A stretch of DNA of 64,000 nucleotides from Kingdonia uniflora. Its lineage: Eukaryota > Streptophyta > Magnoliopsida > Ranunculales > Circaeasteraceae. The stretch spans positions 930,001 to 994,000 of the forward strand of contig JACGCM010001655.1 in NCBI GenBank assembly GCA_014058105.1, given 5' to 3'. The notes under the pieces were generated by a model. That model ran no database searches. It was given only the letters and a program-made list of their open reading frames with translations, and had not been told where the DNA came from. Of this stretch, positions 12,727 through 58,727 are shown piece after piece. The translations under genes and the position numbers were made by a program. The first letter of the stretch is position 1. Every line of letters starts with the position of its first letter.

Positions 12727-12728
12727 TT

Positions 12729-31258: not shown

Positions 31259-31469
31259 TCAATCAAAGTTACTATAAGATGATCCTCCTTCTTTTATAGT
31301 TTTTTCAGCTTTTTCCCGCCATTCTAAGGCATTTCCCCACAATTTCCTCCCTTCCTTACCTTCCATCATTTCCCTAGCAATCCTCTCAATCTCTTCCCTT
31401 TTCACATCAGTGTTAATCTCCATACCCATCTCCCAATTTTCACATAAATAATGATTGTTCTTCTATTGC
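31259..31469 (-). pseudogene. UGT85 exon 2, C-terminal piece
   Basis: Open from the insertion point to the stop: QKNNHYLCENWEMGMEINTD, KREEIERIAREMMEG, KALEW-like NALEWREKAE and the terminal GGSSYSNFD. This is the conserved C-terminus of UGT85 enzymes. It continues in frame from 55657 if one copy of the 5-bp duplication (31465-31469 ATTGC, 55657-55661 GTTGC) is removed. This piece has no internal stop. Confidence 0.92.
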
Positions 31470-31840
31470 TGATGAACACTTTTTCAAGCGTTACTTAATA
31501 CCTCGCTTAAGTACGGATATACCGTTCTAGAAATTATGGAGTAGGGGTCGTACCATGGAGAGTGACAAGATGCGAAAAGCTAATCCTAGGCCGATTTATC
31601 GATGATTTGGTATTTTCTTCAAAACTAAGATAAAACTAAGGAAACAAGATCAAATTAAAAGAAGCTAGCCATGACTAAAGTTCCACCCAACGGAAATAAC
31701 AATAGATCCAATAGCTTTACAAGGCGGATTAATGTACGAAACATTCTGAGTTTGGCATTTTTAGTGTAGATGTTAACCCTAGATCCATGGTTAGGTATCT
31801 ATGGTTTAATCATTAAGTTTCACTAAATCCGATTTGAAGG

Positions 31841-32469
31841 AGAGATTCAACCAATTATGGTTAAGCTTGGTTGGATTTCTTCTCATACATCTTTTCCCCT
31901 TATTGCCCTAAAATTTGACTTAGTGGTTATAACATTGGATTTTGGCAAGAGAGACTAAATTCACTTTATAACTATGGTTCAGCTTAGAAGTGGATTATAT
32001 CCCTTAGAAGATATATAAAAAAAAGCTAATCCTAGAAAACTATATATCACTATCACTACTTAGGTAGGGGCTTCCCTCTAGTCATAGCTAGAAAGGGATT
32101 AGCCTCGCATTATCCTTAAGATCATAGCATTAATATTAATAAAGCAAATAAAAGAGAGAGAGAGATTCAACCAACTATGGTTAAGCTTGGTTGGATTTTT
32201 TCTTATGCATCTTTTCCCTTTACTGCCCTAAAATCAGACTTAGTGGTTATAACATCGGATTTTGGCAAGAGAGACTAAATTCACTTTCAAACAATGGTTA
32301 AGCTTAGAAGTGGATTATAGCTCTTAGAAGATATGGCGAAAAAAAGCTAATCATAGAAAACTATATATCACTATCGCTACATAGGTAGGGGATTCCCTCT
32401 AGTCATAGCTAGAAAGGGATTAGCCTCGCATTATCCCTAAGATCATCGCATTAATATTAATAAAGAAAA

Positions 32470-32480
<11 letters not shown>
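31841..32480. repeat. 320-bp direct tandem duplication inside the LTR
   Basis: AGAGATTCAACCAA begins at 31841 and again at 32161, with near-identical sequence through GGGATTAGCCTCGCATTATC to the GA-rich end. The sister LTR has one copy. The GA-rich boundary suggests slippage or unequal exchange at GAGAGA. Confidence 0.9.

Positions 32481-32528
<48 letters not shown>
32474..32528. repeat. (GA)n microsatellite, about 27 repeats
   Basis: A pure GA run of about 55 bp within the LTR. The corresponding place in the sister LTR (near 41090-41125) has a short interrupted tract. Confidence 0.95.
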
Positions 32529-32531
<3 letters not shown>

Positions 32532-33062
32532 TTGAACAAAAATTACTCTTGTATTTCTTCAATTCCTTTTAGTGCGAGATCCTCATTACAATGGGGGGAG
32601 GGTTCCATTATAGGAGAAGGAACCCAAATTTATAAACAATACATAAATTCTAAAGAATATTTTCACAATAATATCTTCTAATATTACAACCAATCATCTA
32701 ATATTCTTGCATATAATTTCCTTAACTGATGTAGAGATCTTTCTTCATGGAAACTCTTGCATATGTCTTGAATATAAAATATCTTCAAGGATCTTGGATA
32801 CAATATATTCTTTGATCATATTCTCCCAGAATATTTGTGTATATATTTCTTTAATCATAAGATCAAATATATTGTGTCCTTGACTTTTTGTGCTATGAAC
32901 TGCTGAAGACACTTTTACTTAACTTTAAGAGCTTGGCTTCAAATATCCATCTCCAATAGCTGCAATCAGACAAACGTGCATAAGTACCCAAAATTAAATA
33001 TAATGGACGACTTTAAATATATGTTCGGGTATATTAAAAATGTCATAATTACGCGCTCATCA

Positions 33063-34479
33063 AATACCCTGAACTTGTCTTTTGCTCATCCCGAATAAAG
33101 TATAATAAGAACCACTTTCATAGGGAGCGCGAATAGTTTATGCAACAAGCCGTTAAACCCCCAGGTTTAATATGGTGGACGAGTGTTGTCTTGTGAGGGT
33201 TTGCAGTAACTATATCCACAAAAGTCAATAATGACATTTTAAATAATTCTATAATACACATGACTCATTTCCTATGAACTTTTCCTTACTTAGTTGTGAT
33301 AAAAATATATTGATGGGAAATTCTTAAATAAGTAATTCTCTCAAGTATACCAAAGAATATTTTAAGCTTATCCGAAATTAGAGGTACTATCTCAAGATTA
33401 GAAAGAGATTCAAGTATTTTGCTTTAGCGATATTTTAGTGTACAGTGAAAATAATTTTATCACCTAATACGTTGTCTAGAATAATTTACTAAAATTTGTT
33501 TGGTAGTCTAGTTCTTACTGGAATAAATTCAACAGTCAGTTCGACAATTACCTTAGCCAATTCGTCTTCTTAGAATTTTACTTTTTCTTTTTTTATCTTT
33601 TGCAAGCCTTTTCTTTTGAGTACTTTGTTTCTTAGTAAAACCTCCGTAACAAGGAGTTTTTGGTCGACAATCCTAGCCAGTTGTCTAAGGTTGTCGGGGT
33701 GTGGTACCCCATCATGACCTAGACTCAGGATTCTCACAAGTAACATTTTCTCATGCTCCTTTCACATAGTTTATGGTCAAACTCAAGATTGGTGATAATT
33801 TTTCCTCTTTCAATTCTTAATCATGCGAGTAGCCTTGCAGCGTGGAAGTTTTACGAACACATTTGGCTATTTTTTATTCTTTTTCTTCTTAGGAATGAAC
33901 TTATTCTTAGGCAATTGTCTCCCTTGAGGCAAACTATTCCTAACATAAATGTTAAATTTCCCTTATACTGAGTAAAAATCTATTGAAGGTATTATTTGCA
34001 AAACTACAGTAAAGTGCATATTTTTAAAATATGCCAAGGTAACTTGAATTAGTCGCCAATAAAAAGATAGTACATCTAGCTTAAGATAGTCCAAAATATT
34101 CAAGTGTATACTTGGTACAATTTTAAAATTTATGCTTTTCCATAATATTTATGCCAAGGTAAAATTAGTTTAAGTGTTTGGAAATTCGTCAAAAAATATA
34201 TCATAAATTGTCAAAGTGCCATTATTATACTTTTCTTCAAAAATCATTTATTGAAATGGATTCCTACCCCCAAACTTAAATCAAGCATTGCCCTCAATGT
34301 TTGAGAACAAGAAAATAAATGGAGGAAGACTAAAATTTCTTACTTAAATGTCTCATGGGTTGCCTCCCAAGAAGTACTAAGTTTACCGTCTTCAACCAGA
34401 CGAATGTACCTCCATACCTAAATGATTTGCAATTGTACTATAGGGGTACATAATATCAGCTCTGATATACTGGATCATC
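33063..34479. other. Athila 3' internal non-coding region
   Basis: Between pol and the 3' LTR. The part 33063-33346 is homologous to 41665-41958 and the part 34141-34258 to 54827-54942. It contains CCCCCAAACTTAAATCAAGCATTGCCC, here only noted as 34267-34293, a common Athila-type post-pol motif. No ORF is recognisable. Confidence 0.7.
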
Positions 34480-34999
34480 TAGAAATTTATCTTTTCATCA
34501 AAAGAATAGGACTCTAAGTATGGTTTTAATCGTTGGCCATTGACCTTAAAAATGTCGGCATACCAGGGTAATTATATAATAACCATGAGCTGCTCATCAG
34601 GAAATGTCTCTAAGATAGGGAGGAGATCTTCACCACCTTCGATCAGAAGTCGTGATAAATGGCTGCTATAACATTTTTAGCACCTTTCTTCTCTCGAATT
34701 TCGATGTCAAATTCTTGTAATAAGAGGATCCATAAGATTAACCAAGGTTTTGCGTCATTTTTGGATAGCAAATATTTTAAGGCCACGTGATCGGTATAGA
34801 CAATAATTTTGGATCCAACAAGATATGACCAAAAATTTTCTAATGCAAATACAATTGTTAATAACTCATTCTCAGTGGTGGAGTAATTCATTTGTTCATC
34901 GCTGAGTATGCGACTGGCATAATAAATAACATGAGGTTTTTTATCTACTCTTTGCCCTAAAATTGCTCCAACAACGTAGTCAGATGCATCGTACATCAA
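34480..34999 (-). pseudogene. Athila RNase H fused to the integrase C-terminal scrap
   Basis: The open frame 34643-34999 is a gypsy RNase [55 protein letters not shown] and [16 protein letters not shown]. The plant family normally continues to a full integrase of several hundred residues. Here PDEQLMVII and LPWYADI are followed almost at once by FKVNGQRLKPYLE, an integrase C-terminal motif. The zinc-binding and DDE core are deleted. The unit could not move by itself. Confidence 0.85.
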
Positions 35000-35986
35000 T
35001 TCAAATGGAAGATCCCAGTTGGACGGTTGGATGATTGGAGCGGAAGTTAATAGAAGTTTGAGCTTCTTAAAAACTCTAGAACATTCACCATCAAAGTGGA
35101 AATCAGTGTCCTTAGCAAGTAAATTTCATAAGGGTTGGGAAATTTGGCTAAAATCTATGATGAACCGACAATAAAACCCCGCATGGCCATGAAATGATTG
35201 AATGGCCTTAACCATTCGAGGAGGAGGTAAAGAAGAAATAATATCAATTTTGGCCTTATCATGTTTTATCCCTTTGTTGGAGATGATATGCCCAAGAACT
35301 ATCCCTTGTGTCACCATGAAGTGATACTTTTCTTAATTTAACACCAAATTAGTTTGTGTACAATGTTATATCATGAGCTCCAAATGGTGCAAACATTAAT
35401 CAAAAGAAGAACCAAGCACTAAAAAATCATCCATGAAGATTTTGAAAAATTTATCAACCATATAAGAGAAAATGCTCATCATACAACGTTAAAATGTAAC
35501 GGGTGCATTACACAAACCAAATGGCCTACGTCGATAAGCATAAGTCCCGCAGGGACATGTGAATGTGGTTTTCTCCTGATCTTTTGGAGCGATGGGGATC
35601 TGATTATATCCAGAATAACCGTCAAGAAAACAATAATGACTTTTTCCCGCCAATCGTTTAAGTATTTGATCAATGAATGGAAGAGGAAAATGATCTTTCC
35701 TAGTAACAGTGTTCAACTTTCTGTAATCGATACAAACATGCCACCCGGTGGTCATACGGGTACGAATTAATTCATTATTCTTATTTTCGACAAAAGTAAT
35801 CCTTGATTTCTTAGGTACAACCTGAATAAGGCTGACCCACTTACTATCCGAAATAGAGTATAAGATACCCGAGTCTAAAAGCTTAAAAACTTCCTTCTTA
35901 ACCACCTCCATCATAGTTGGATTTAAGCGCCGCTGCATCTTGCATAAATTTTTACACCTTCGTCGAGATTGATACGATGCATGCAC
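35000..35986 (-). pseudogene. Athila reverse transcriptase
   Basis: An open piece at 35489-35986 carries RRLNPTMMEVVKKEVFKLLD, WHVCIDYRKLNTVTRKDHFP, FLDGYSGYNQIPIAPKDQEK and YAYRRRPFGLCNAPVTF, diagnostic of Athila RT. The YxDD region near 35400-35460 is degraded. The thumb resumes at 35126-35317 with VLGHIISNKGIKHDKAKID and FHGHAGFYCRFI. Frameshifts separate the pieces. Confidence 0.9.
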
Positions 35987-36329
35987 ATGGCCGGGCTAAT
36001 TCCCTTCAAGTCTGCTATAGGCCACCCTATGGCTGATTTATGTTTTCAAAGAACACTCAACAATCTACCTTCCTGGTCAGCATCTAGATTGGAAACTATA
36101 ATTACAGGTAGAGTTTCAGAATCACCAAGAAAGGCATACTTGAGAGTTTTGGGTAATGGCTTGAGGTCCAACTAGGGTGGCTTAACAATGGATATAATAA
36201 GAAAAGTAATTGATGGTTTAAGAGGTTCTAGTCTAGGTTTCCATTTGGACATGTTAAAAAAAGGAGTTGAGTCGAGTAAGACATTAAAATCTTCAATGAT
36301 TGTGTCTTCATCAAAGTCATCACCAAAGT

Positions 36330-38711
36330 TTACAAGACATGATTATAATGGGTCCTCAGAAAAGGATTTGGGAAAGAGTTATAAACTAGAGAGTCAATCA
36401 TATTGAGCTCAGCCATGTCATTAGAATCAGGCACCTGAGTATTATTATTAAAAATATTGAGTCTGATTTTAAGGTCGCCCATAGATAGTTGTAAGGCCCC
36501 ATTAAAGCAATTGATAAGGGCGTGGGCAGTAGCAAGAAAAGGGCGGCCCAATATGACGGGGATCTCACAGCTAGGATTCGTGACATCTTTAATGTCTAAA
36601 ACAACAAACTCCACAGGAAAAATTAGAGTATCAACCTTGATAAAAATATCCTCAAGGATACCTCGTGGGTATCGTATTAACCCATCAACCCATTGAAGTG
36701 TCATTCGGGTAGGTTCGAGTTCTCCAAGTCCTAATTTCTGATAGACCGAGTAAGCTAAGACATTCACACTAGCCCTCAAGTCGAGTAATGCCCTATTCAC
36801 TTTCTGATCTCCAATTTTATAAAGGATGGTTAGGCTTCCAGGATCTCGAAGCTGAGGAGGGGTTAATGTCTCAGTCAAGAAGACTTTCTTGGGTACATTG
36901 ATTTTCCTTTTCCAAGTGCACTCATCCTTAAGGAATTTGGCATTCGCATGAATAAGCATAATGACATCGAGTACTGGAATATTTATATGAACTTGCTTAA
37001 ATGTATCCAATATCTCATCAAATTGAATCCCTTTATTAGCCGAAAGAAGGCGTTGTGGATAAGGCACCATTGACTCAGCACGTGCCTTTGGTACGGAAAC
37101 GGACGAAGTAGGCAACTCCTTATATTTCTTAGAAGGTTCATGGTTGCTTACTACAGCTGGTTCACTCGTACCAACCTCATCCTCAATAGCAACTAGTGTT
37201 AGCTCAACCCTAGGTATTTCAACTCGGCTATCAATTTGTCTACTACTTCAAAGAGTAGTAATGGTATTAAGCTATTTTGAGATTGAACTAGAATCAAAAC
37301 CAGGCGGTTCTTTCGGATTAGATATAGGTTGGCTAGGTAGCTGACCAAGTGGTCTCTCATGCAATGCATTTGCCAATTGTCCTATCTCCGTCTCTAGATT
37401 AGAGATAGATTGGGATGCAGAATTTTGATTTAACAATGTCTGCTACTAGAATTACATCATTTGTTGTTAAAATTACAATGCTTGTTTTTGACTTTCCATT
37501 GATTGTTACATGAAGAGAGAAAGGGTGTCTTCCAAAGATGGCTTGGGTGGAGTGGGCGGGAACTGTTTGGATGACTGAAAGGTTTGCTAAGATGCTTGAG
37601 GTTAGGACTGAGAATTGGGATTCCTAGGAAAATTATGAACTGTGGTCTGTGGCTCTTCAAAACCAAGACTGGGTTGGTTGTTCTTCCACGAAAAATTTGG
37701 GTGGTTCTGCCAAGATGGCTTGTACGGGTTAAATGGCCTCTTGTAGGTATTTTTCAAAGCATTCAGTTGCTTTTGATTATCATTCATTTTATTTAACATG
37801 GGACACATTTGAATCACATGGGTGACATCATAACAAATGGTGCACCCCTATTGCTAAACTTGGTTCACACTACCCTTAGATTGATTCATAGCCATAACCT
37901 CGATTTTTTAGGTAAGAGTATCTAATTGGGCTTTTATGGCCGTTTCCTCACTTACTTCATGTAAGCCACCTTTCTTGGTTGTACGAACATTTCTATGTGG
38001 ATCAAAATCCCATTGCTGAGAGTTCTCAGCCAATGTTTCAAACTCACCATAAGCTCTATCGGGTTCAAGGTCCTAAAATTTGCCACTATGCATAGATTAT
38101 AGCCTGTAACGATTCTTAGACGTCATTCCACGATAGAAGATCTGAGCCAAATATTACTTTTCAGAACCATGATGGGGACATTATAAAAGAAGATCTTTAC
38201 ATCTCTTTCATGCCTCGTAAAATGTTTCACTCTTATTTTGGGCAAATTCAATAATTATATTTATAAGAAAAAGGGTTTTACCTATTGAAAATTATTTAGT
38301 TTTGAACTTAGTCTCCATTTGGTCTCATGAATTAATAGATGCTGGTGCTAATAAATTAAGCTAATGACTCACCTTATCTTTGAGTGAGAATGGGAATAAA
38401 CAAAGGCGGACATAATCCTCAGTAAAATGTTGATATTTTGAGAGCGCACAATTTTTTTTAAATTTGTGGACGTGCTTATAAGGGCTCTCAAAATCAAGTC
38501 CATGAAATGTAGGTAACATTTGGATCACACTAGGCTTGATTTTATAATGATTTGTTATGACGGTTGGTAATTCGATACACGAAGGTATATCACTCACCAC
38601 TGGGGTCCAATAGTCCCTAAGAGATTTGGCAGCAGCCATGATTGGTGTTTCAACTTCTAGCTCAACAGGAAGCTCAATTGGGTCAACTCTAGATAGATTA
38701 CCCTCCTCCAA
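36330..38711 (-). pseudogene. Athila gag and protease
   Basis: Gag starts near 38711, with LPTFHGLDFESPYKHVHKF and RLCLFPFSLKDK typical of Athila gag. The middle, 37120-38360, is frameshifted but retains scraps of the Pro/Asn-rich part. The protease region is open at 36330-37115: KINVPKKVFLTE, ALLDLRASVNVLAYSVYQKL, PVILGRPFLATAHALIN. The active-site triad, Asp-[Thr/Leu]-Gly in the family, reads DLRAS instead of DLGAS, so Gly is lost to Arg even where the frame is open. Confidence 0.88.
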
Positions 38712-40390
38712 AATTGGGGGTCCTAAGTTCTCTATTGTGTTGATTGGGCGTGGTAGTCGCCATCTCTACTTGGGCTGAGGTGGTGGGCCATTAATAGGCA
38801 AAGGTTCTTGTAAACTCCCTAAACATTTTTCTCCACGTGTCCAATTAATCATGCATAAACTAATATGCGATAAAATTTGGCACCCGATACAGTAAACAGT
38901 CAATCAAACCTATAATCTAACACTTCAACATTTTTTAAAAGTAATAATTAGGTCTCCCCTATATTCTTCTATATTCACAAAATGGTAGGATTGTAAAAGG
39001 CTTTGGTTCCTAAACTTCTCTGCATCGCTGTGCTAGTACTAGCCTAAAGTAGATGTTCAGTCCTCATGCCCGAGCGAGTCGCCTTATCGTACATCCGCAC
39101 TTGAAATAGTGACATCACAAACCTACAACCAGTATTTTGTGGTACTCGGCTGGGGCCGTATCCTGCAAACCCATGTTTGTACCCCGGTCCGGTACACCTA
39201 TCAAATGGGTGATAAAATCCCGTGGGAATCTCGCAACTTTTTATTATTATCAGTTATTTTCAGGTCTGGGACGTTCAATTTTCGTGTGATAGGAATTTCT
39301 TCGTATCCCTAATGGGTGGTCCCACTTGTTAGAGAGCTTTTTGGGTGATGAAATCCTGTAAGTCTCTAACAGTTTTTACCTTTACTAATGCTGAAATAAA
39401 TAGAAATTTAAGCACAACAATAGGTCAATCCAGCCACAGCAATTTTTTATTATTAGAGCAGCGTGTCTTTACGAAGTCCACATGACTTTATATGTTCTAG
39501 TGCCGGGGCGGAGCGGATATGAACCCTTTCTAAATGTCAATTTTAGAGAAATACCAATCTACGAGAAGTGTTTCCCGGTGAAGCTGTGGCCGCCCCTTTA
39601 CTTAGGGGGCGAAATAAAGAAATGCCCCTTCACTTAGGGGGCACAAGAAGGATGGATTTGATGATGCTTTCAGCTTTGCGAATTTTCTATCCTCATTCTT
39701 TTTTACACTTTAACATCTTTTTACCGTGTCCCAAAACAATAAACCTGAAAAGAGAAAGAATGAGAAAGTTAGACAGTGTTTTACCATAGATATACAATCA
39801 TATACTAAAAATAATAATGAGATTAATTAATTTTCGTTAAGTGAAAGATCAAGTCAGAGAGATGATCAACAAAAATGTGACAATAAAAGGATGAGAGATG
39901 CACTAACACAATGGGACCAGCTAATAAAATACAAGTTTTCAACTTGCAAGATGTAACACATATTAATCAACTTGAGTTGGTGTATCCCAATTAATCCAAA
40001 CAGATGCAACAGGAAGAAAATCACGAGGAACCCATATTATTGTCCAACTCCAAAACTTTTAGAAACCAACCCAAACTTGAAAACCTCAGTACGGTTGCAC
40101 AAGCAGCTTAAATCACAGCTTTAACTGTAGTTGCAAACTACAAGAAAACTTTGGTTCTAGTCGCAAACTCTAAGCAAACTCAATAATCAAGTAACAAACG
40201 GCCTAAAATTCAATAAACACTTAGATTATAACCTTAAGTCCAATACTTCCAATGTTAAGTTCTTACTGTAGCACAAAAACCTTTAAAAAAAGAGAGAATA
40301 TTTTATTACACAAAAAACAAAAAACAAAAAAATGCAAATAAAATAATAAAAGAAATCGGTATTAGTAACGGTCCTTCGCACCGTTGCACT
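38712..40390. other. Athila 5' leader
   Basis: About 1.7 kb between the primer binding site and gag on the minus strand. Long untranslated leaders are usual in Athila. It has no recognisable ORF; purine-rich and A-rich patches lie near 40300-40350. Confidence 0.6.
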
Positions 40391-40407
40391 CCTCGGCAAC
40401 GGCGCCA
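40391..40407 (-). other. Athila primer binding site
   Basis: The minus strand reads TGGCGCCGTTGCCGAGG, three bases inside the LTR. It matches the known Athila-type site (TGGCGCCGTTGCCGGGG, thought to pair with tRNA-Asp) except one base. Confidence 0.9.
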
Positions 40408-40410
40408 ATT

Positions 40411-41664
40411 TGATGAACGCTTTTTCTAGCGTTACTTAATACCGCGCTCAAGTATGGATTTACCATTGTAGAAATTGTGGAGTGGGGGTCGTACCACCGA
40501 GAGTGATAAGATGCAAAAAACTAATCCTAGGTCGATTTATCGATGATTTGGTATTTTCTTCAAATCTAAGATAAAACTAAGGAAACAAGATCAAATTAAA
40601 AGAAGCTAGCCATGACTAAAGTTCCACCCAACGGAAATAACAATAGATCAAATAGTTTTACTAGGCGGATTTATGTACCAAAAATCCCGAGTAGGGCATT
40701 TTTAGTGTAGATGTTAACCCTAGTTCCATGGTTAGGCATCTATGGTTTAATCATTTAGTTTCACTAAATCCAATTTGGAGGAGAGATTCAACCAACTATG
40801 GTTAAGCTTGTTTGGATTTCTTCTTACGTATTTTTCCCTTTATTGCCCTAAAATCCGACTTAGTGGTTATAACATCGGATTTTGGCAAGAGAAACTAAAT
40901 TCACTTTCAAACTATGGTTAAGCTTAGAAGTGAATTATAGCTCTTAAAAGATATGGCAAAAAAAAGCAAATCCTAGAAAACTATATATCACTATCGCTAC
41001 TTAGGTAGGGTCTTCCCTCTAGTCATAACTAGAAAAGGATTAGCCTCGTATAATCCCTAAGATCATTGCATTAATATTAATAAAACAAATAAGAGAGAAA
41101 GAGAGAGAGAGAGTGAGAGAGTGAGATATGTTTGAACAAAAATTAATTATGTATCTCTTCAATTCCTTCTAGTGTGAGATCCCCATTACAATAGGGGGTG
41201 GGTTCCTTTTATAGAAAAAGGAACCCAAATTTAAAAACAATACATTAAATTCTAAAGAATATTTTCACAATAATATCTTCTAATATTACAACCAATTATC
41301 TAATATTCTTGCTTATAATTTCCTTAACTGATGTAAAGATCTTTCTTCGTGGAAACTCTTGCATATATCTTGAATATAAAATATCTTCAAGGATCTTGGA
41401 TGCAATATATTCTTTGATCATATTCTCCAAGAATATTTGTGTATATATTTCTTTAATCCTAAGATCAAATATATTGTATCCTTGACCTTTTGTGCTATGA
41501 ACTGCTGGAGACACTTTTACTTAACTTTAAGAGCTTGGCTTCAAATATCCATCTTCAATAGCTACAATCAAACAAACGTGCATAAGTACCCAATATTAAA
41601 TATAATGGACGACTTAAAATACATGTTCGGGTATATTAAAAATATCATAATTATGCGCTCATCA
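40411..41664 (-). repeat. Athila middle LTR (5' LTR of the surviving unit)
   Basis: It runs TGATGAACGC to GCGCTCATCA (1254 bp), with a minus-strand TATA box CTATAAAAGG near 41204-41213. The PBS adjoins its left side, but its right side is the 3' internal tail of another unit instead of host DNA. It is therefore shared by two tandem units. Confidence 0.9.
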
Positions 41665-41958
41665 AATACCCCAAACTTGTCTTTTGCTCGTCCCGAGTAA
41701 AATATAATAATAACCACTTTCGCAGGGAGCGCGAATGCATTTAGCATATGCAACAAGCCGTTAAACCCCCAGGTTTAATATGGTGGACGAGTGTTGTCTC
41801 GTGAGGGCTTGCAGTGACTATACCCACAAAAGTCAATAATGACATTTTAAATAATTCTAGAATTCACATGACTCATTTCCTGTGAACTTTTCCTTTCTTA
41901 GTTGTGTTAAAAATATATCGATGGGAATTCCTTAAATCTGTTATTCTCCCAAGTATAC
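41665..41958 (-). mobile_element. 3' internal tail of the second Athila unit
   Basis: About 290 bp homologous to 33063-33346, with the AACCCCCAGGTTTAATATGGTGG segment near 41764-41786 present in both. It is interrupted at CAAGTATAC by the start of Tat element C. Confidence 0.88.
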
Positions 41959-42761: not shown

Positions 42762-42773
42762 TTCGCCCCCTCT
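42762..42773 (-). other. Element C polypurine tract
   Basis: The minus strand reads AGAGGGGGCGAA against the LTR, identical to 12128-12139. Confidence 0.88.
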
Positions 42774-47942: not shown

Positions 47943-48238
47943 ATCTGTTGGAATTGAAAGTCGATCTGTTTGAAGTTGAAATTGGATCCGTTTGATGTAG
48001 AAACTCGATTTGTTTGAAGTAGAAATTTGAGCTGTTCGAAGTTGAAATTAGAGCTATTCGAAGTTGAAATTTAATCTGTTTAATGTAGAAATTCGATCTA
48101 TTTAAAGTTGAAATTCGAACTGTTCGAAGTTGAAATTCGAACTGTTCGAAGTTGAAATTTGATTTGTTTGATGTAGAAACTCGATCTATTTGAAGTAGAA
48201 ATTTGAGCTGTTTGAAGTTAAAATTTGATCTGTTTGAA
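47943..48238. repeat. Minisatellite of about twelve 24-bp units
   Basis: Units vary on GAAGTTGAAATTCGATCTGTTT. Variants such as GATGTAGAAACTCGAT recur in the same order at about 47994 and 48170, so a longer repeat of about 176 bp is superimposed. Element B has no equivalent array at its matching place (19297-19686). Confidence 0.9.
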
Positions 48239-48299
48239 TGACTGCAGTGTGATCAAAGCCTGAAGAGTATCAAATATGTAGATCAAATTCTGGATGTTT

Positions 48300-49170
48300 T
48301 GCTGGACATCGAAGGCCGAAGCCTCAGCGATGTTGAAATTTTTAAAAATTTCTAGGTCGCCTCCGAGTATCAGTCGGGCCGAGGGGACGTGATACTTAGA
48401 GGAAATCCAAAAATTTACTGAACTTTGAAGGCCTGAGCTACAGCGAAGAAATATCTGATCGCCTCCAACGTATTCCCGAGGGTCCGGTCTTTCGACCATC
48501 CTTGCCCCTCGAGTTTGCTCGAATGTTGAAAACTTGAGAAATTCAAGGTTGCCCCCAAGTACCAGTCGAGGCGAGGGTGGACATGATACCCGAGGTAAAG
48601 TGAGAAAAGGATTGGACTTCGACGGTTTCAGAGCCTGGATGAAGTATATCTGATCGCCCCCAATGCATCCCCGAGGGTCTGGTCTTTCGACCTTCCTTCC
48701 CCCTCGAGTTTACTCAAAATTGGAGACTTGATCAATTCATGGCCGCCCTCAAGTATCGGTCGGGCGAGGGTGGACATGATACCTAGGTTCAACAAAGAAA
48801 AAGACTGGACTTCAAAGGCCTAAGCCACAGCGAAGCAATATCTGATCGCCCCCAATGCATCCCCGAGGGTCCGGTCTTTCGACCTTCTTTATCCCTCAAG
48901 TTTGCTCGAAATTGGAGACTTGAGCAATTCATGGCCGCCCCCAAGTATCAGTCAGGGCGAGGGTGGACATGATACCTAAGTTCAACCAAGAGAAGGACTG
49001 GACTTCGAAGGCCTAAACCACAACGAAACAATATCTGATTGCCCCCAATGTATCCCTGAGGGTCTAGTCTTTCGACCTTCCTTGCCCCTCGAGTTTGCTC
49101 GAAATTGGAGACTTGAGAAATTCATGGCCAACCCCATGTATCAGTCGAGACAAAGTTGGACATGATACCT
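48300..49170 (-). repeat. Tandem array in element C, about five units of 192-194 bp
   Basis: Anchors of GGCCGCCCCCAAGTATCAGTCG type occur at about 48355, 48548, 48741, 48932 and 49126. Each unit contains CCCCGAGGGTCCGGTCTTTCGACC and TCGAGTTTGCTCGA segments. Read on the minus strand the unit is homologous to the element B unit (GATACTTGGGGGCG, GAGCAAACTCGAGG). It lies directly after integrase in pol direction. Confidence 0.9.
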
Positions 49171-49249
49171 AAGTTAAACCAAGAAATACAGAATGAAAAC
49201 GGAGACAAAGTCTGGGTGGAACAATCTTGTTTATTGAATATGCTGGATT

Positions 49250-50420
49250 ACATTAGTTGTACATGATTGGAGATAAGGCTTGTTATAGGAGACCAGCTGC
49301 ATTGTGTTCCAGGGGTTTGGTAGAGGCTCTTCTTCTTCTAACATTAAGTAATAAAAACCCTTGTCTGTTTTATCTTAGACGACGTAGGGTCCTTCCCAAG
49401 ATTCGGCTAACTTACTGGCATTCCAAGGTTTCAAAGATTGATTGACATGTCGAAGTACTAGATCTCCAATGCTAAAACTTCTTGGTCAAACTCTCTTGTT
49501 GTAGGATTTTGAAGTGAAGTGTGGTAGCGGCCAAGGTTGGCGATAGCTCGGTCTCTGGTCTTATCGATCCATAACATGTTACACGCAAGTTTGAACTTAT
49601 TATCTTCGTCTGGGAGGTTAGGGTCTCGGGTGGGTAGTTCAAATTGAGTGGGTAGTACAGCTTCGGTCCCATATGTCAGGGGGAAAGGGGTACATCCTGT
49701 GGATTTTCTTGGTGTTATGCGATAGGCCCAGAGGACGGGTTGTAATTCTGGAACCCATCGTCTTTTCTTTGCGCCGACTCTCTTCTTAAGACCGTCGACA
49801 ATTATTTTGTTGATTGCTCCGACTTGACCGCTACCCTGAGGATAGTAAGGTGTTGAGGGTGAGAGAATGATACTTTGTTTTTTTAGGAAGTTTCTGACTT
49901 TACTACCATTCTCGCATCGAATCAGATGGGGGCAGCTGAAGCGAGTGATAATGTTTTCCCATAAAAATTTGATAACATCTTCTTCTCTGGTTCGGCAAAG
50001 AGGAACAGCTTCGACCCATTTAGTAAAGTAATCGGCTACGACGAGGATATTTTCTCCGCAACCCAAGGCTTTTGGGAAGGGTCCAATGAGGTTGATGTCC
50101 CATCTTTTGAATGGCTAAGAAACTTGACTGAAATGGAGGTCTCGAGAGGGGCAATGGATGTCGTGAGCGTGACGTTGGTATTTGTCACATTGTTTTGCAT
50201 AGTCTGAAGCTTGTTTTTTCATATCGGGCTAAAATAATCCTTGGGTAACAACTCGAAGGGCCATAGAATGACCAACAGTATGAGCACCGCAGGTTCCTTC
50301 TCGAAGTTTGACTAAGATTTGAGAGGCTTCTGCATGGGATATGCATCGAAGGAGGACGCCATTTGGGGATTTTTGATGTAGTTGGTTTTTGTGGATAGTA
50401 TATCTGTGGCAGCTTTCTAG
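49250..50420 (-). pseudogene. Element C integrase
   Basis: The best frame is 49458-50066 (NILVVADYFTKWVEAVPLCR, ITPRKSTGCTPFPLTYGTEA, DKTRDRAIANLGRY). The first catalytic Asp lies just upstream in the degraded WDINLIGPFPK-like part (50070-50110). The second motif is CENG, with the QFVGNK residues after it deleted. The third is YYPQGSGQVGAINKII, with Gly for the catalytic Glu. The zinc-binding part lies at about 50150-50260 with a frameshift. The C-terminal domain ends near 49250. Confidence 0.85.
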
Positions 50421-51040
50421 CTAGGATCGTTTGGCATTGGGATCATCTGGGAGGGTAGCGCTATTGAGGCAGTGAAGAGATGGTGTCCGCCAATCGTCTG
50501 GATCGTGACTCTTGCCCCCAGTATTGATGGTATTGATTTCCATCTGGTCGATACATGGGCGTTCGAGTACTTTGATATGGAGTATCTGAGATTCTGATTG
50601 TCCGAGCATAGCTGCTATGCAAGCGAGGGAATCTGCATGTCTATTTTCTCCTCGAGGGTAATGTGTGATTATGGATTTTTTGGGGAATCGGTCCATACAT
50701 TGTCGCACAAAAAGAGCATAATCAGCCATGCGACCGTTAGCTTGATTTTCTCCTGTGTAGTATTTCTGAACAAGTTGGGAATCTGTAAAGACTACAAGTT
50801 TGGGAATGCCAAGGTCGAGTGCGAGGTCAAGGCCGTGGATCAAGGCTTCATACTCTGCTTTGTTATTAGAACATTCGAAGGCAAGTTTGACAGCTTTTTC
50901 TATGCGATCATTAGTGGGTGTTACCAAGACAATACCAATTTCTGAGCCATTAGGTCCTGCTGATCCGTCTGTGAATAAACGCCAAGCAGTGAGAGAGTCC
51001 CAGTGATCTACTATTTCGAGTTGGTCTTCTGATAAATCGT
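50421..51040 (-). pseudogene. Element C second (archaeal-type) RNase H
   Basis: The open frame 50421-50927 plus upstream codons shows FTDGSAGPNGSEIGIV, CSNNKAEYEALIHGLDLAL, LVVFTDSQLVQ and YPRGENRHADSLA. Asp, Glu, Asp and Asp of the active site are all present, unlike elements A and B. It is followed by MEINTINTGGKSHDPDDW, the linker to integrase seen also in A and B. This is the best preserved Tat-diagnostic domain in the window. Confidence 0.88.
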
Positions 51041-52306
51041 CTTCATGTTCTTCCCAATCAACATCTTCTACCAGGAAGTCAGCCAGAAAGTCTGCTACTA
51101 CTTGGCCTTTTTGGGATATTTACTTCTCGAAGGTAATATCGTGTTCGCCAAGATATGCGGACCACTGTTGCACTAGTCTGGATTTTTCATTTTTGTGGAG
51201 TACTTCTCGAAGGGTATAACTGGTAATAATACGGATGGGATGAGCCTAAAAATATAGTTTAAGCTTACGGGCTGAATAGACAAGTGTGAGGAGTAAATGC
51301 TCGAGTTTTGAATATCGAGTTTCTGCGGGGGTTAGGTTTTTGCTGATAAATATACAGGTTTATCGATGTTGGAATCAAGTCGAATGAGCATTGAACTGAG
51401 AGAAGTTTCTGTGACAGCAAGGTATAAAGAGAGTGTTTCTCCTTCAGTAGGTGTGCTGATAATTGGTGGACGGCCAAGATAAGTTTTGAGTTCAAGGAAG
51501 GCTTGTTCGCACTCAGGGGTCCAGTCGATCTCGAGATTGTTTTTCTTTTTTGCTTTATGGACGCCATGCTCGCACATGAGGGAGATGAGCAAGGCACATC
51601 AATCTGAGGATTTTGAAATAAAGCAATTAAGGGCGGCTATCCTGCCTGCCACTTTTTAGACGTTTTTCTTGGTTTGGGGCGAAAGCAAGTCTATGAGGGT
51701 TCGAATGTGGATGGGGTCAATCTCTATCCCGCATTTACTGATAAGGTGACCCAAAATTTTTCTGGATGATACGCTAAATTGGTACTTATCTGGGTTAAAT
51801 TTCATATTATACGTGCGAAGTATTGAGAAGATTTTTGAGAGGTCTCGGATATGGGTGTATTTCCGAAGGCTCTTGCATAACATATCGTCGATGTAAACTT
51901 CGACAGATTTGCCAAACAAGGGTTTGAACATGGATGTGACAAGGCGTTGGTAGGTGGCACTGACATTTTTAAGGCCGAAGGGCATAACATTGAAACAGTA
52001 AAGGCCTTGTTTAGTTATAAATGAAGTTTTAAATTGATCTTCGGGGAGGAGGGGTACCTGATTGTAACCCGAAGCCGCGTCCATCATGGATAGGCGCTCG
52101 TGTTCAGCAGTGGCGTCGAGGAGTGCTGAGATAGTTGGGAGGGGGAAACTGTCCTTCGGAGTGTACTTGTTGAGGTCTGTGAAGTCGATGCAGATTCTGA
52201 TCTTACCATTCTTCTTAGGCACTGCCATGATGTTCGATATCCAGCCTGTGTACTTCACTTCTCTGATAAAACCAGCAGCAATGAGCTTGTCAACTTCAAG
52301 GTTCAC
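51041..52306 (-). pseudogene. Element C reverse transcriptase and first RNase H
   Basis: RT is open at 51656-52306: NLEVDKLIAAGFIREVKYTG, ICIDFTDLNKYTPKDSFPLP, MMDAASGYNQVPLLPEDQF, LKNVSATYQRLVTSMFKPLF, YIDDMLCKS and LGHLISKCGIEIDPIHIR. A stop and frameshift near 51595-51655 separate it from RNase H at 51332-51592 (IDWTPECEQAFLELKTYLGR, LYLAVTETSLSSMLIRLD). The TDTS motif of relatives is TETS here. Confidence 0.9.
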
Positions 52307-52639
52307 AGCTTCTCGAAGTCGTGGTGCCAGTGTATGGTGTTTTTATTTTATTATTGTGGAATAGGGGATGAGATCGAGGTGGTGGCAGGCCAGGTTGGGG
52401 TTGACACCAGGCATTTTTTGAAATGTCCAGGCGAAGATGTCTTTGTTTGTTCAAAGGAACTCAGAAAGTTTGAGGCGCTCAGACTCGTTAAGGAGGGTTC
52501 CCATAAATGCACCCTGACCAGGCCCGTCGAGTTCAATATAAACAGTGGGTTCAATGGGTTGGGTGGTATCTGTCAAAATCGAAGGGATAGAAAGATGCTG
52601 TGATTGCTATGAGCGGCTGACAAGTTTCGTGTTTGGCCG

Positions 52640-54812
52640 ATCTCTGGATGCTCGCATGAGCGGGCAAGGCGTTGAGATCCTTTCAAATTCTAAGTACCCT
52701 CGTGATTGCTGAGTCAAAGGGTCTGATGATAGGTCGAAGGTATAGCTCGCATGGCGTGAAGCCAATCTCGTCCGAGTATACCAAAGTATTCAGACTTCTT
52801 GTCAATGACGATGAAATTGGTTTGAAGGGTAATGGGACCTAAAGTGACGGGTAAACTGATACGGCCAACAACGACTTCTGCTGATCCATTAAAATCTTTT
52901 AGTTCGATGTTGGCAGCGGTTAGAGGTCTGTTTTCTTTATGGTTTGGATTGTTTGGAGAAAGAGGACATCAGCTGCGCTCCCAGTATCTATGAGCATTGT
53001 ATGAAGGATGAGGTTCTCGATCTTAATCATGATGACTAATGGATCGGAGTGGGGGGAGCGAACATGTGCGGTGTCACAGTCGATGAAAGAAATACCTTCG
53101 AGTCAAGGGTGAGAGCTTGATTCTGACAGAAGGGTAGGAAATTTCTCCTGATAGGTGAGCTTGTAACATTCTTCGATGCGCTTTCGTTTGCTCTTGGAAA
53201 GTCTACTGTCTATGTTGCTAACTTCGATGAGCTTGACTCTGTAGATGTGTACCTCGGCTGGGTCAGTAGTAGAGGTGGATAGGGATTTGAGGTAGGACCC
53301 ATCGAGGTATCTTGGTAGATTAGCAATATACTAGTGCAAACATCCTGCTCTGAAGATAAGTTCGAAAGAGTGCTGAAGGGCGAAGCATTTATTAGCATGG
53401 TGACAGTTGCACTTATGTTTGGTACAGCAAGGTTCACCTGGTCTGACTTTGATGGGGAAAGCGATGCACCAAATGAGGTCTGCCTGTATGTGTGGTAGAA
53501 GGGTGCTGAGGGGGACAGTAAGTATAGGTAAAACATGCCTTGGTCGCTTCTTGCGAGCTTCGGTACTGTTATCAATGATGGGGTGTTTGCAACTCTCAGT
53601 CTCCTGTGAGACAGGAGTGATCAGGGGTGTGGAAGCAGAGTGGGTGTGTTGCCGAGGTTTATTAAAATTTGTTGTTTGTGAAGGCTGGCTCTGTTTTCGG
53701 GACTCTTGAAGGTGCTCGAGATCGATATAGCTGTTGACCTTCGAAAGCATCTCCTCGGGAGTTTTTGGTTTGTGGAGGACTAGGTGCTCTTTTACTCGGT
53801 TGTGGTCGGGCAGGGCATTCGAATATGCTAAAATAACATTCGAGCAATCGAGATTCTCTATTTTCCGGGATTCATCGAGGAATCTTCTGGTGAAGGCTTC
53901 GTGGGTCTCACTGCTGGATTTTCTAAAATTAAAAAGAGCGTCGACTCTGACCTCTCTGTCCTTATTGAAGGCGAACTGAGCGATGAAAAGTTGTGAAAGT
54001 TGCTCGAAGCTACGAATCGAGCCATTTGGGAGATTGTGGTACCAACGAAGGGGATTATCGGTAAGGCTCGTTGGAAAAAGGCAACATAGTAGGTAGTCAG
54101 CCGTAGAGTAGAGGCTCAGGGCTTTTTGGAATTCGAGGATGTGGGATTTAGGGTCTGTGTTGCGATATTTACCAATTTTGGGAGCAAGAAAGTTAGAGGG
54201 TATTTCGATAGCCAAAAGTTTAGGGCAGATCGGGTTATTGAGGCGGCTCCAGGAGTCGGTGGCTAGGCTCGCGGTAACGCGAATTGCTGGTTGTATTTTG
54301 TGGTCGAAGTTCTGCTGTGTAACGTATGCAGGATGAGGGGGATATTGATGAAGTCGAAGGTTGTTGGGTCGAATATGTGGTATAAAATTAGTGTTGTGTT
54401 CCCGAGCCGTTCTCGAGTAGGACGGCGTCTGAGATTTCTGGAGGAGCGAAGGGTTGAGTCAGAAGAGTCTTTTGTGGGATGAATCCCGAGGTGGACAGAG
54501 CCGGTTGGGGGAATGGTACAGGGAATACCTTCGGCCTTGGTATTAGCTGGGGGTAACTCGAGGTTTTGTGGAGGGCCTAGGCGGGTGTCGGCAGATACGC
54601 GCGATGGGTCGGGTGCCTGGGACGAACGAGCGGGTTCCAAGGGCTGTAATCTCTGTAGCTCTCGAACGGTGTTACGCAGGTCGTCTATCGCTCGGTTCTG
54701 TCTGTTTTCGTCATCGAGACGGCGATTCTGTTCAGTTTCCAACGCCAAACGGTGGCTTTCTCGCTCCTGATTCAGTTGGTTCTGGTGGCGCTTCTCTGCC
54801 TGAGTGACTTGT
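52640..54812 (-). pseudogene. Element C gag and protease (gag N-terminus cut)
   Basis: Gag enters at 54812 without its first residues: LDDENRQNRAIDDLRNTVRE near 54640-54710, then the capsid in an open frame at 53331-54215 (PSNFLAPKIGKYRNTDPKSH, SLTDNPLRWYHNLPNGSIRS, DALFNFRKSSSETHEAFTRR) and a Cys/His motif (CNCHHANKCFALQHSFE, near 53350-53410). The protease IDTGSAADVLF lies near 52985-53015. Frames are broken at 54216-54262 and within 52600-53330. Confidence 0.88.
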
Positions 54813-54826
54813 TACAATTTAAAGAA

Positions 54827-54942
54827 ATGCCAAGGTAAAATTAGTTTAAGTGTTTGGAAATTCGTCAAAAAATATATCATAACTTGTCAAAGTGCCATTA
54901 TTATATTTTTCTTCAAAAATTATTTAAAGAAATGGTTTCCAG
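54827..54942 (-). mobile_element. Athila internal scrap
   Basis: About 115 bp homologous to 34141-34258 (both start ATGCCAAGGTAAAATTAG). It lies between the broken gag of element C and the truncated Athila LTR. It is part of the mostly deleted Athila unit. Confidence 0.85.
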
Positions 54943-55656
54943 CTCTTAGAAGATATGTTGAAAAAGAGCTAATCCTAGAAAACTATATATCACTATCGCT
55001 ACTTAGGTAGGGGCTTCCCTCTAGTCATAGCTAGAAATGGATTAGCCTCGCATTATGCCTAAGATCATAACATTAATATTAATAAAGCAAATAAAAGAGA
55101 TAATGAGAGAGAGAGAAATGCTTGAACAAAAAGTATACTCTTGTATTTCTTCAATTCTTTCTAATGTGAGAACCTCATTACAATGGGGGGATGGTTCCTT
55201 TTATAGAAGAATGAACCCAAATTTAGAAACTATACATTAAATGTTAAAAAATATTTTCACAATAATATCTTTTATTATTACAACCAATCACCTAATATTC
55301 TTCCATATAATTTCCTTAGCTGATGTAGAGATCTTTCTTCCTTGAAACTCTTGCATATATCTTGAATATAAAATATCTTTAAGGATCTTGGATGCAATAT
55401 ATTCTTTGATCTTATTCTCTAAGAATATTTGTGTATATATTTCTTCAATCTTGAGACCAAATATATTGTGTCTTTGATTTTTTGTGCTATGAACTGCTGG
55501 AGACACTTTTACTGAACTTTAAGAGCTTGGCTTTAAATATCCATCTCCAATAGTTACAATCAAACAAACGCGTATAAGTACCCAAAATTAAATATAATGG
55601 ACGACTTAAAATACATGTTCGGGTATATTAAAAATGTCATAATTACGCGCTCATCA
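54943..55656 (-). repeat. Truncated Athila outer 5' LTR
   Basis: It aligns with 40936-41664 of the full LTR, from AGCTCTTAGAAGATATG to the terminal GCGCTCATCA. The inner 525 bp or so are deleted. The intact outer end adjoins UGT85 at GTTGC. Confidence 0.9.
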
Positions 55657-55881
55657 GTTGCTCAACAAAAAAAGGCCAACAAACAGCAGGTACTCCACTA
55701 AATATAGTCTCAAGTGTAGAGTTCCATCCACAATGTGTTAAAAAGGCTCCAAGTGAAGGGAGCAAGAGCACATGCTCTTGAGCACACCAACTAGCTATCA
55801 ACCCTCAGTCTTTAGTCTCGTCCAAGGACTCTTGGGATAAAGTTGCCAATTTACCCATTATGGCATCAGTTCTAATGATCC
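55657..55881 (-). pseudogene. UGT85 exon 2, PSPG-box piece
   Basis: It encodes the plant secondary-product glycosyltransferase (PSPG) signature that binds the UDP-sugar: [17 protein letters not shown] then [20 protein letters not shown] and VCWPFFVEQ. Upstream are FLWIIRTDAIMGKLA and LSQESLDETKD followed by TGA in place of the conserved Arg. It ends at the Athila insertion. Confidence 0.93.
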
Positions 55882-55891
55882 ATAAAAATGG

Positions 55892-56646
55892 AGAAAAAGT
55901 TTAATTCTAAGTGCTTAGGACCGAGAACCGTCCTAAGCGCCTCCCCATTCGACATGTGTCTTATTTAACCAAACTTTTTAATCGTAGTTAGTTAGTTACT
56001 ATTAACAATTTTATCCTCCTTAATTGATGGTTGTGCTAAATTACCATATCAATTATAATTAATCTTCCTATTTTGATTATTAATTTTTGTCTATAACCAA
56101 AAGAAAAAGAACTCCATGATGACAATCAATCCAAAACATAAAGATTACAGTCTGTTTACCAAAGTTCGTACACTATTGGAAATATTATTGACATGGACAA
56201 GATCTTGGAGGCATAATTGTCATCTAGTTAGAATACTTGGGCATGGAGTTTTATCCATTAAACCCACTTTCATTAAAGTTTTAGTCTAACAAGATTTATC
56301 ATAATTACTATTCAATTACATAAAGAAAATTTGTGTACCCTAATTAAGAAAATAAATAAATAGTGGTGCTTATGTTTGTTGATTATTCTTAGAGCTGTAG
56401 TAGAAACTATTTTATCTCCAACACTTTCATTTTTGGCGCCAACTAAATCATGTGTAAAAGTAAGTCATGAAAATAGGAAACTCTAGTATTTTTAATTGAT
56501 ATCCAACCCTTAATTGGAGGAGAAATGATAAGACTAAACAACTAATTAACCAAGGTATAGAAGTTGGGTTAAATATGACACATGTCGAATGGGGAGGCGC
56601 TTAGGACGGTTCTCTGTCTTGAGCGCTTAGGGCCAAACTTTTTATT
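55892..56646. mobile_element. Mutator-like MITE, 755 bp, in UGT85 exon 2
   Basis: Terminal inverted repeats of about 77-80 bp (GTCCTAAGCGCCTCCCC and TTCGACATGTGTC in both arms) and a perfect 10-bp target duplication ATAAAAATGG (55882-55891 and 56647-56656). TSD of 9-11 bp with long TIRs is the mark of Mutator-like elements. The interior is AT-rich without coding capacity. It splits the codons of the HPFLW motif of UGT85. Confidence 0.92.
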
Positions 56647-56656
56647 ATAAAAATGG

Positions 56657-57107
56657 GTGCTTGCTATTTGCAAGTCCCTAGGCAAATTTTCTCAGTTGTT
56701 TCTCAGTCATAACGGTTACACTCCAAAAATTTACGTATAAAATGGAACTGAGACTCTGTTTATCCAACCACTACAGCAATCAAAATCGTCCTTCCACAAG
56801 TTTGTTCCCAAATTTTTCACTTTATTCTTTGGAAGATGTTGTCCAAGCACTGAAAGGGGACCTATCATATAAATGTTAGGAGACATAAGCATGATTTCAT
56901 CCAAAACTTCCCGTTCCAAATCATCAAAAGTATTAAAAATGATAGCAGGAAGACAATTATGAACTTCCTTTCCCACAAAATGAAGCATGACATCATTAGG
57001 ATCGGTTGTTCTGATAAAAGATGGTACATCCATAAGCCGCATATTTCTTAAACCGGGTATTGAGTCAACATGGTTATCGACATATCCGTTGCTATAGCAA
57101 CTCTCAT
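56657..57107 (-). pseudogene. UGT85 exon 2, first piece
   Basis: It starts at the splice acceptor (TTGCTTGCAG, then ATGAGAG) and reads ESCYSNGYVDNHVDSIPGLR, LMDVPSFIRTTDPNDVMLHF, AIIFNTFDDLEREVLDEIML and NIYMIGPLSVLGQ. These are UGT85 group motifs. The frame is lost near 56735. VNFWSVTVMTEK and QLRKFA, a TAG, then GLANSKHPFL follow in another frame up to the MITE. Confidence 0.93.
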
Positions 57108-58220
57108 CTGCAAGCAATTGGTAAAAATAAAATTATAAGCTTGGGCTTACGGATACTAAGACCGACGTAAGGAGGTATTTCTTACAAGGAGGTATTTCTT
57201 ACGTTTGATAATAGGTAAGAAATGGAAGATTATGCCACATGATGTCAGCGTCAATATGAATGTCCGTGTGGATTGCCAAAACTATCCCTCAATAAAAGTT
57301 AAATGAAGCAACAAAAATAAGGGTAAAACAGTAATGTTGCTGATTTCTCTCAAGATCTCTTTCTTCTCTCTCGCGATCTCATACACCTCTCAATCTTCTG
57401 GAATCTTCTACTTTTAGTCTCACTCTAAAATCTCTCCTTCGATTTTCTTCATTCTCGAATCTAGCAAAGAACCGGGAACAACGTAGACACTAAATTGTTG
57501 ATGCGTTTCTTTGATTTCTTTGTCTCAGGTTTACATATAAGCAATTTAAAAGAGATTTGATATTGGTTTAAATCTGGTTTCAATAAGAAATGATTTTAAC
57601 ACCATTACATATATTATAAGGAATTTGTAGGTTTTACTCGGGATTTATTCTTTCCCACTACCAAACTTTTGAATCTACAAACCAAGAATCTCTACATCTG
57701 TGCTTTTTGTTTTTTTTAATATATAATTTATTTTGTTTGTTTTATACCTTGATTTCTAGCACTACATGTATCTTCCTGCATGAACATTGGATATCTTTAG
57801 TATCTAACATTAGTTAGAATAAATTGGTAATTTCCAAGAACCAAATTTAAGCATTGAATTTGCTCAATGACTTTTTCGGAGTAACACCCATTACAAGATT
57901 CCTCAATCATTTCGGTTCACTGGCAACTTGGTATAAGGTGTTCCCCGCAAACTTGGTTACACCCTCAACAAGATATATTCGGATTACCAATTAACTATGT
58001 AGCCCTTTGTAGCAAAACACGTTGAGAGTATTTTGGATGCATTGCGGTTATTTACCAATATCGACTATCCACAACATTTGCAAATCGTAATTACCATGAT
58101 TGAGAAAGAGAGTGATTGTGTATATTTCATGTTTAAGCTTTATAGTATATAACAGTCGGTCCCTACCGTTCAGTGGTATACTAGTTTAGATTAAAACAAA
58201 TGAATAAGAACAAGTTCTAC
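57108..58220 (-). other. UGT85 intron
   Basis: It begins GTAGAAC and ends TTGCTTGCAG on the minus strand. Splicing K-G|AT gives TPLKDESCYSNGYVD, which matches the family. It is 1113 bp. A duplicated GGAGGTATTTCTTAC (57171-57202) lies near its end; no other element is identified. Confidence 0.85.
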
Positions 58221-58727
58221 CTTTCAATGGTGTAAGACCTATTTTAATAAGGTCCTTGAAATAGAGATAACACATGAACCCGCAAGCCGACACAGTTTAA
58301 AGTTGAACCTCAGGTAGTCCTAGCTGTTATACGGTTTTTACACTAGAACTCATGACTCCATCGGAAACTACACACATTACATCAGGCACGTCTAAGGAAG
58401 AATTGAGCTTCCAACTAGCTCACAAAGAGGACCAAGGCAATTTTTTTGAGTTGAATCACATACTGAAGGGACATCTTGGGCAGCATCACCGTTGGACGGT
58501 GGCAATCCATCAGGTATATTCTCAAAACAAAAATTGGGTACACTTTATAGTTTATCAAGTCTCACTGACCGCAACAATCGTCTATGGTTGTATTCGGTAT
58601 TGACAAATGTGATATGAAAGTCTCTAGAGTGCAGAAGCTTTGTAAATTGCATCATTGGAGTAATGTGGCCTTGCGCAAGGAATGAAATGGATACAACATT
58701 GGGCTTATCAACTACGTTTGAACCCAT
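58221..58727 (-). pseudogene. UGT85 exon 1
   Basis: It starts [20 protein letters not shown], with [20 protein letters not shown] and [14 protein letters not shown], the acceptor-binding N-domain. A TAA at 58547-58545 replaces a codon after DKL. NFCFENIPDGLPPSNGDAAQ and CDSTQKNCLGPL follow. A shift near 58385 leads to VPDVMCVVSDGVMSSS; a second stop stands at the Trp of VQLW. CGFMCYLYFKDLIKIGLTPL leads to the donor site. The start was chosen because the family begins at this MGS; an in-frame Met 23 codons upstream is probably leader. Confidence 0.93.

Follow-up and report, generated by a model that had tools for sequence, protein, structure and literature searches.

A single UGT85 gene probably interrupted by an Athila-like insert and a Mutator-like MITE, both in exon 2, in Kingdonia uniflora

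In a 64,000-nucleotide stretch of the Kingdonia uniflora genome (assembly GCA_014058105.1, contig JACGCM010001655.1, positions 930,001 to 994,000, forward strand; hereafter the window), there is one UGT85-type gene on the minus strand, which can be read in six coding pieces (58727–58410, 58395–58222, 57108–56776, 56770–56648, 55882–55658 and 31462–31223). These pieces very probably are the remains of one gene whose exon 2 was interrupted by an Athila-like long terminal repeat (LTR) retrotransposon and, independently, by a Mutator-like miniature inverted-repeat transposable element (MITE), the LTR insert, now a tandem, having received a Tat-type element and then suffered deletions. An earlier note on this DNA had proposed that exon 2 of one UGT85 gene was split by an LTR insertion, which duplicated 5 bp, and by a MITE, which duplicated 10 bp, and this core is borne out both by the duplications and by the adjacency of the gene pieces in homologues. 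No second UGT was found in the window: when three full-length homologues are used in tblastn, each returns six pieces and the next match has E = 0.09, and we therefore regard the gene as the only UGT gene in the window.

The LTR insert lies between the middle part and the C-terminal tail of exon 2, spans 31470–55656 (24,187 bp) and has an LTR end at each edge. Specifically, the left LTR begins TGATGAACAC at 31470, directly after ATTGC, while the right LTR ends GCGCTCATCA at 55656, directly before GTTGC, the very break points and flanks that the earlier note had named. The edges (TGATGAAC.../...CTCATCA) are TG...CA LTR ends, and together with a flanking site that agrees in four of five bases they have the structure of an LTR-retrotransposon insertion, presumably mediated by an integrase. 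Two 5-mers agree at four or more positions with a chance of 16/1024 (hand calculation). Target-site duplications of 5 bp are given for 93.4% of surveyed plant elements in the excerpted text of PMC6317226.

The coding sequence provides evidence of adjacency that is independent of the 5-bp duplication. Among the matches listed, 120 homologues were considered, of which 90 with a length of 460–520 amino acids were kept and 30 were dropped for length. Exactly one residue lies between the upstream piece and the tail in 90/90 of these homologues, and that residue corresponds to the codon overlapping the duplicated site (31469–31463, comprising the duplicated site and the shared codon), which reads Q with the right copy and a stop with the left copy. 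With the right copy kept, the short joined flanks read VEQ-Q-KNNHY. The earlier claim that removal of one 5-bp copy restores the frame across VEQ and QKNNHY thus stands for the phase, which is kept with either copy, whereas a sense codon results with the right copy only. On the structure 2PQ6, which we take to be UGT85H2, residue 403 is the last one matched by the upstream piece, while residue 4 of the tail falls on 408, so the first residue of the tail falls on 405. The plant UGT signature has the form WCxQ...HCGWNS...E Q, and the middle piece reads SWCAQ...HCGWNSTLE...VEQ in one frame containing one stop, its last Q codon lying at the insertion site. The tail had been placed at 31259–31469, 24.2 kb from the rest of exon 2; the separation is confirmed, but 31259 is a premature TGA, beyond which homology extends to 31223 and is followed by a stop.

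The second interruption is equally exact. The MITE has terminal inverted repeats of ~140 bp each (78% identical by BLAST, 74% ungapped) and is flanked by a perfect 10-bp duplication, ATAAAAATGG, of which neither strand of the window has a further copy. The pieces flanking it have no residue between them in 90/90 homologues, verifying the claim that the reading heals exactly at the 10-bp duplication. Mutator-like MITEs are defined by terminal inverted repeats, a target-site duplication of 8–11 bp and the absence of a transposase, and the 10-bp duplication suggests that this MITE is of that type. Self-BLAST detected no other copy of it in the window.

The gene itself is heavily damaged. Exon 1 starts with an ATG at 58727 and ends at a phase 1 GT donor, and the pieces on either side of the intron have no residue between them in 90/90 homologues. 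Within exon 1 there are in-frame stop codons at 58545, 58327 and 58297 and a frameshift between 58410 and 58395; the first part of exon 2 has a frameshift between 56776 and 56770 and an in-frame TAG at 56678. Counting all pieces, there are six in-frame stops in 471 codons (58545, 58327, 58297, 56678, 55805 and 31259, each the lowest base of its codon) in addition to the two frameshifts. With these and the two insertions, there is no intact UGT85 open reading frame, and the gene, judged from its sequence, is predicted to make no enzyme now. The statement that both insertion events are readable to the base accordingly applies to the LTR and MITE scars, which are exact, while the locus holds more than two events and a gene that is otherwise unsound.

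We next consider the origin of the two gene parts. The alignment of the tail with 2PQ6 reaches 65.5 bits, compared with 47.3 for the cyanohydrin glucosyltransferase 7ZER (UGT85B1-type) and 39.8 for a UGT74; the tail matches UGT85 best, and the possibility raised in the earlier note, that it is closer to another UGT subfamily, is ruled out by the 18-bit lead of 2PQ6 over the next structure. For the three of the six pieces that were tested, 2PQ6 is the top structure in every case (65.5, 88.4 and 93.8 bits). The closest full-length proteins of normal size among the matches listed are P0009 and P0013 of Kingdonia uniflora, to which the read-through is 63% and 61% identical, respectively. Within the set of 90, P0009 ranks first for all three exon 2 pieces before the tail and P0013 for the second exon 1 piece, while the tail is matched best by Ranunculus P0016 (98.2 bits), followed by Kingdonia P0009 (97.1) and P0013 (95.5). 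Furthermore, columns conserved in at least 95% of the 90 homologues are lost alike in tail (3/17) and body (21/131). The gene resembles the UGT85 family (2PQ6, P0009 and P0013) in its homology over nearly the whole protein, in six pieces, and differs from it in being a pseudogene with the insertions, stops and frameshifts described above.

It is highly unlikely that body and tail come from different genes, as would be the case if, of two tandem UGT85 paralogues, one had lost its 3′ end and the other its 5′ end to an Athila-like element, the two being fused later by recombination or deletion. UGT85 genes often occur in tandem clusters, the best relatives of body (P0009) and tail (P0016) differ slightly (97.1 versus 98.2 bits for the tail), and the mismatch in the 5-bp duplication would fit such a fusion; yet two insertions would have had to strike the same codon boundary independently and share a matching 5-bp site, and both the single residue between the pieces in all homologues and the like loss of conserved columns speak for one gene. 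Less likely still is an artefact in which the assembler joined the LTR–gene junctions through repeats. Although the insert is made of repeats and tandem LTR structures are hard to assemble, each junction consists of an LTR end beside a near-identical duplicated site, which is not expected of random mis-joining.

Several points weigh against a single gene split by insertion. The 5-bp duplication has one mismatch (ATTGC/GTTGC), Pfam UDPGT is found in only one of the six pieces, and the sole Pfam match of the tail, below the cut-off, is DUF6082, which we take as chance. The first exon 1 piece ranks P0090 at the top (146 bits), with P0009 34th (137) and P0013 72nd (129) of 90, which we read as noise in a slowly changing region, yet it misfits the simple picture. 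In addition, with one sequence to judge from, a misassembly of the 24-kb repeat region stays conceivable.

The insert is not a single ordinary 24-kb Athila, a candidate ruled out by the presence of three LTRs in register. Self-comparison and alignment reveal three LTRs that belong to one Athila-like family and share one orientation, the third truncated (Table 1). The same internal sequence lies to the right of the left LTR and of the middle LTR for ~290 bp (distance K = 0.098), and the register of the insert is a tandem, LTR–internal–LTR–internal–LTR. The apparent primer binding site is left of the middle LTR, and the Athila-like element therefore reads on the minus strand. An independent full insertion of the middle and left LTRs with a duplication of its own was rejected, as the middle LTR is followed by AAATACC..., the internal sequence found at the left LTR, and by no copy of ATTGC. 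At the second junction, internal sequence runs straight into the middle of the third LTR; the BLAST match of this LTR shares a few bases with the remnant before it, placing the junction near 54928–54942. The nested Tat-type element has an LTR at its left end only, and its homology to another copy in the window ends at 54804, about where the first LTR of that copy ends (12902 versus 12724), indicating that its right LTR was lost along with adjoining Athila-like sequence. The inside of the insert thus records at least four events. Of the earlier description of Athila LTR ends at both breaks, the LTR ends hold, while the one Athila is replaced by a three-LTR Athila-like tandem that has undergone deletions and carries a Tat-type element without a second LTR. 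In the left LTR only, there is a ~320-bp tandem duplication at 31840–32486 (92% identical by BLAST), which is absent from the middle LTR.

Table 1. Parts of the UGT85 pseudogene and of the elements inserted in it (window positions; a point marks features given no strand).
Feature	Position	Strand	Evidence
UGT85 pseudogene exon 1	58221..58727	-	six-frame reading, tblastn with UGT85 homologues
Intron, GT/AG ends, phase 1	57108..58220	-	sequence and homologue alignment
Exon 2, first part	56648..57107	-	six-frame reading and homologue alignment; frameshift 56776/56770, TAG 56678
Exon 2, middle part	55658..55882	-	Pfam UDPGT 9e-13; 2PQ6 residues 329-403; in-frame TGA 55805
Exon 2, C-terminal tail	31223..31469	-	six-frame reading and homologue alignment
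Target-site duplication of LTR insert, left copy ATTGC (one mismatch)	31465..31469	.	sequence
Target-site duplication of LTR insert, right copy GTTGC	55657..55661	.	sequence
Athila-like LTR, left insert edge	31470..33062	-	self-BLAST, alignment
Athila-like internal region, frames in pieces (protease-like, reverse transcriptase, RNase H)	33063..40410	-	self-BLAST, Pfam; apparent primer binding site next to 40410
Middle Athila-like LTR, internal sequence on both sides	40411..41664	-	self-BLAST, alignment
Start of second Athila-like internal region, matches 33063-33350	41665..41958	-	self-BLAST, alignment
Tat-type element in second internal region, LTR at left end only; 54805-54826 unassigned	41959..54826	-	self-BLAST, Pfam
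Remnant of second Athila-like internal region, matches 34151-34264	54827..54940	-	self-BLAST
Truncated third Athila-like LTR, right insert edge	54928..55656	-	self-BLAST, alignment
MITE, 755 bp	55892..56646	.	self-BLAST inverted repeat, arms and ends inspected
MITE target-site duplication, copy 1, ATAAAAATGG	55882..55891	.	sequence
MITE target-site duplication, copy 2, ATAAAAATGG	56647..56656	.	sequence

The outer element matches Pfam RVT_1 and RT_RNaseH, has a protease-like match just under the cut-off, and contains two further frames without a match. A protein search with the protease-region frame yielded almost only unnamed proteins among the 120 matches listed, and none of these bore the name of Kingdonia. 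On the minus strand, the middle LTR is followed by AAT, a 3-bp spacer, and then by TGGCGCCGTTGCCG, which looks complementary to what we take to be the 3′ end of tRNA-Asp. On the type of its reverse transcriptase, its LTRs and this apparent primer site, the element can be described as Athila-like. Its Ty3/gypsy-type reverse transcriptase and RNase H and its LTRs are like those of the Athila lineage of Ty3/gypsy (OTA), with LTRs of ~1.3–1.6 kb, as far as the excerpt of PMC6317226 describes that lineage; unlike that lineage, the frames scanned here show neither an env-like frame nor a Pfam match to Athila ORF-1. Priming by tRNA-Asp is reported for Diaspora and Calypso in an excerpt of PMC1142308, and the apparent primer site would resemble theirs; its spacer is 3 bp, compared with the 5 bp given there for Diaspora.

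The nested element is 73% identical over 6.4 kb to the other copy, at 12902–19301, and carries gag and reverse transcriptase, along with a second domain of RNase H type (RVT_3) and a match to integrase below the cut-off. Specifically, RVT_3 (1.5e-18) and RNase_H match at 50424–51119, between the reverse transcriptase frame and the integrase-like frame. According to the excerpted part of PMC6317226, which sets out the Athila/Tat division, an additional RNase H of archaeal type defines the Tat clade; we infer that the RVT_3 domain is this additional RNase H, which would place the element in Tat. The element also contains ~4.3 copies of a 193-bp repeat at 48358–49186, with a related array at ~18526–19306 in the other Tat-type copy (self-BLAST), and a 22-bp (88-bp higher-order) tandem repeat at 47932–48238.

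Divergence among the three LTRs bears on the origin of the tandem. In the shared part, K is 0.075 between left and middle, 0.090 between left and right, and 0.106 between middle and right. The three LTRs can be compared without gaps at 711 sites, of which 624 are the same in all, 37 are unique to the right LTR, 27 to the middle and 17 to the left, and 6 differ in all three; the divergence is star-like, with unequal counts of unique sites (chi-square 7.4, 2 degrees of freedom, P about 0.025, hand calculation). A mosaic middle LTR, produced by unequal crossing-over, was rejected because no switch is seen between the halves of the overlap (unique sites 20/17 right, 18/9 middle, 9/8 left), in a test made weak by the low power of 711 sites and by the fact that recombination soon after insertion would leave no trace. 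Plant LTRs change at 0.7–1.3e-8 per site and year, giving the outer LTR pair an age of ~3–6 million years, which is only indicative.

Because one 5-bp duplication surrounds the array, the LTRs are star-like without a mosaic in the middle, and the target sequence is fixed by the exon, the three-LTR array may have integrated ready-made as a tandem in one retrotransposition event and not have been built later by recombination, a proposal that we make tentatively and consider rather doubtful. Morales-Diaz et al. (2025, PMC11899658) describe LTR tandems of rice and other plants that are enclosed by a single duplication, in an excerpt that leaves open whether they arrive ready-made or arise by recombination. 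As in those tandems, so far as the excerpt goes, several internal regions share LTRs, one short duplication surrounds the whole, and no second duplication is seen at the middle LTR. The LTR identity given there is 85–89% in one rice case, compared with K of 0.075–0.106 here; the present tandem differs from those described in the excerpt in being exonic, in having its second unit mostly deleted and in containing a Tat-type element. With its target sequence fixed by an exon, the locus can be used to ask if such tandems are inserted ready-made or built up on site.

The course of events may be pictured as follows. An Athila-like LTR retrotransposon would have integrated in the codon after ...WPFFVEQ of exon 2, duplicating 5 bp, and a Mutator-like MITE would independently have entered exon 2, duplicating 10 bp. 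The LTR insert is now a three-LTR tandem in which one internal region is long and the other mostly deleted. A Tat-type element would have entered the second Athila-like internal region, and deletions would then have removed the second LTR of the Tat-type element, ~40% of the third LTR and the greater part of the second internal region.

Whether the gene died before or after the LTR arrived concerns the order of events only, and an earlier death is compatible with one gene interrupted by both elements. Such a death, in which stops or frameshifts came first and the insertions were passengers and not the cause, has a somewhat less than even chance. In its favour, decay beginning at the LTR insertion (d = 0.045, half the left–right LTR distance) predicts 2.3–2.5 stops, compared with the six observed in 471 codons (Poisson P 0.03–0.04); this P rises, however, to 0.09–0.13 at d = 0.06 and to 0.4–0.5 at d = 0.1. 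The pseudogene has lost 24/148 conserved columns, whereas living homologues, each left out in turn, have lost a median of 2/149, P0009 9/150 and P0013 14/150 (the most). If the ~10% loss predicted from neutral change at d = 0.045 is added to the losses already present in the two Kingdonia proteins, the sum comes close to 24/148, which argues against an earlier death. Decay since the LTR insertion explains most of the damage, and gene death before it is possible. Decay of seed-development genes has been reported in Kingdonia (excerpt of PMC9866071), from which we draw no inference for this locus.

Pseudogenes with nested transposons are very common in plants; the locus is an ordinary one of this kind and reveals no new mechanism. 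No description of it was found in the literature, judged by titles and the openings of abstracts. It does illustrate cleanly how a gene has died with transposons nested in it, since the coding frame proves which ends pair despite the rearranged insert, and it cautions that a UGT fragment beside an LTR may belong to a gene that lies 24 kb away and lacks this end. Any wider use is limited to one point, the target site of a three-LTR tandem being fixed by an exon.

Further repeats and element fragments lie in and around the pseudogene. The intron contains two perfect copies of a 17-bp repeat (57169–57202). About 120 bp upstream of the ATG, the stretch 58848–59097, which starts TGTTGAGG and ends CTCCTAACA, resembles a short LTR by eye, and the same reading revealed no evident duplication in its flanks. 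The other Tat-type element, on the plus strand at approximately 11601–25252, has LTR-like repeats at 11601–12724 and 23964–25252 (K 0.151). Between it and the UGT tail there is a gag_pre-integrase (copia-type) frame at 26779–27237, and an RVT_1 reverse transcriptase fragment lies on the minus strand at 1368–1790, near the left end of the window.

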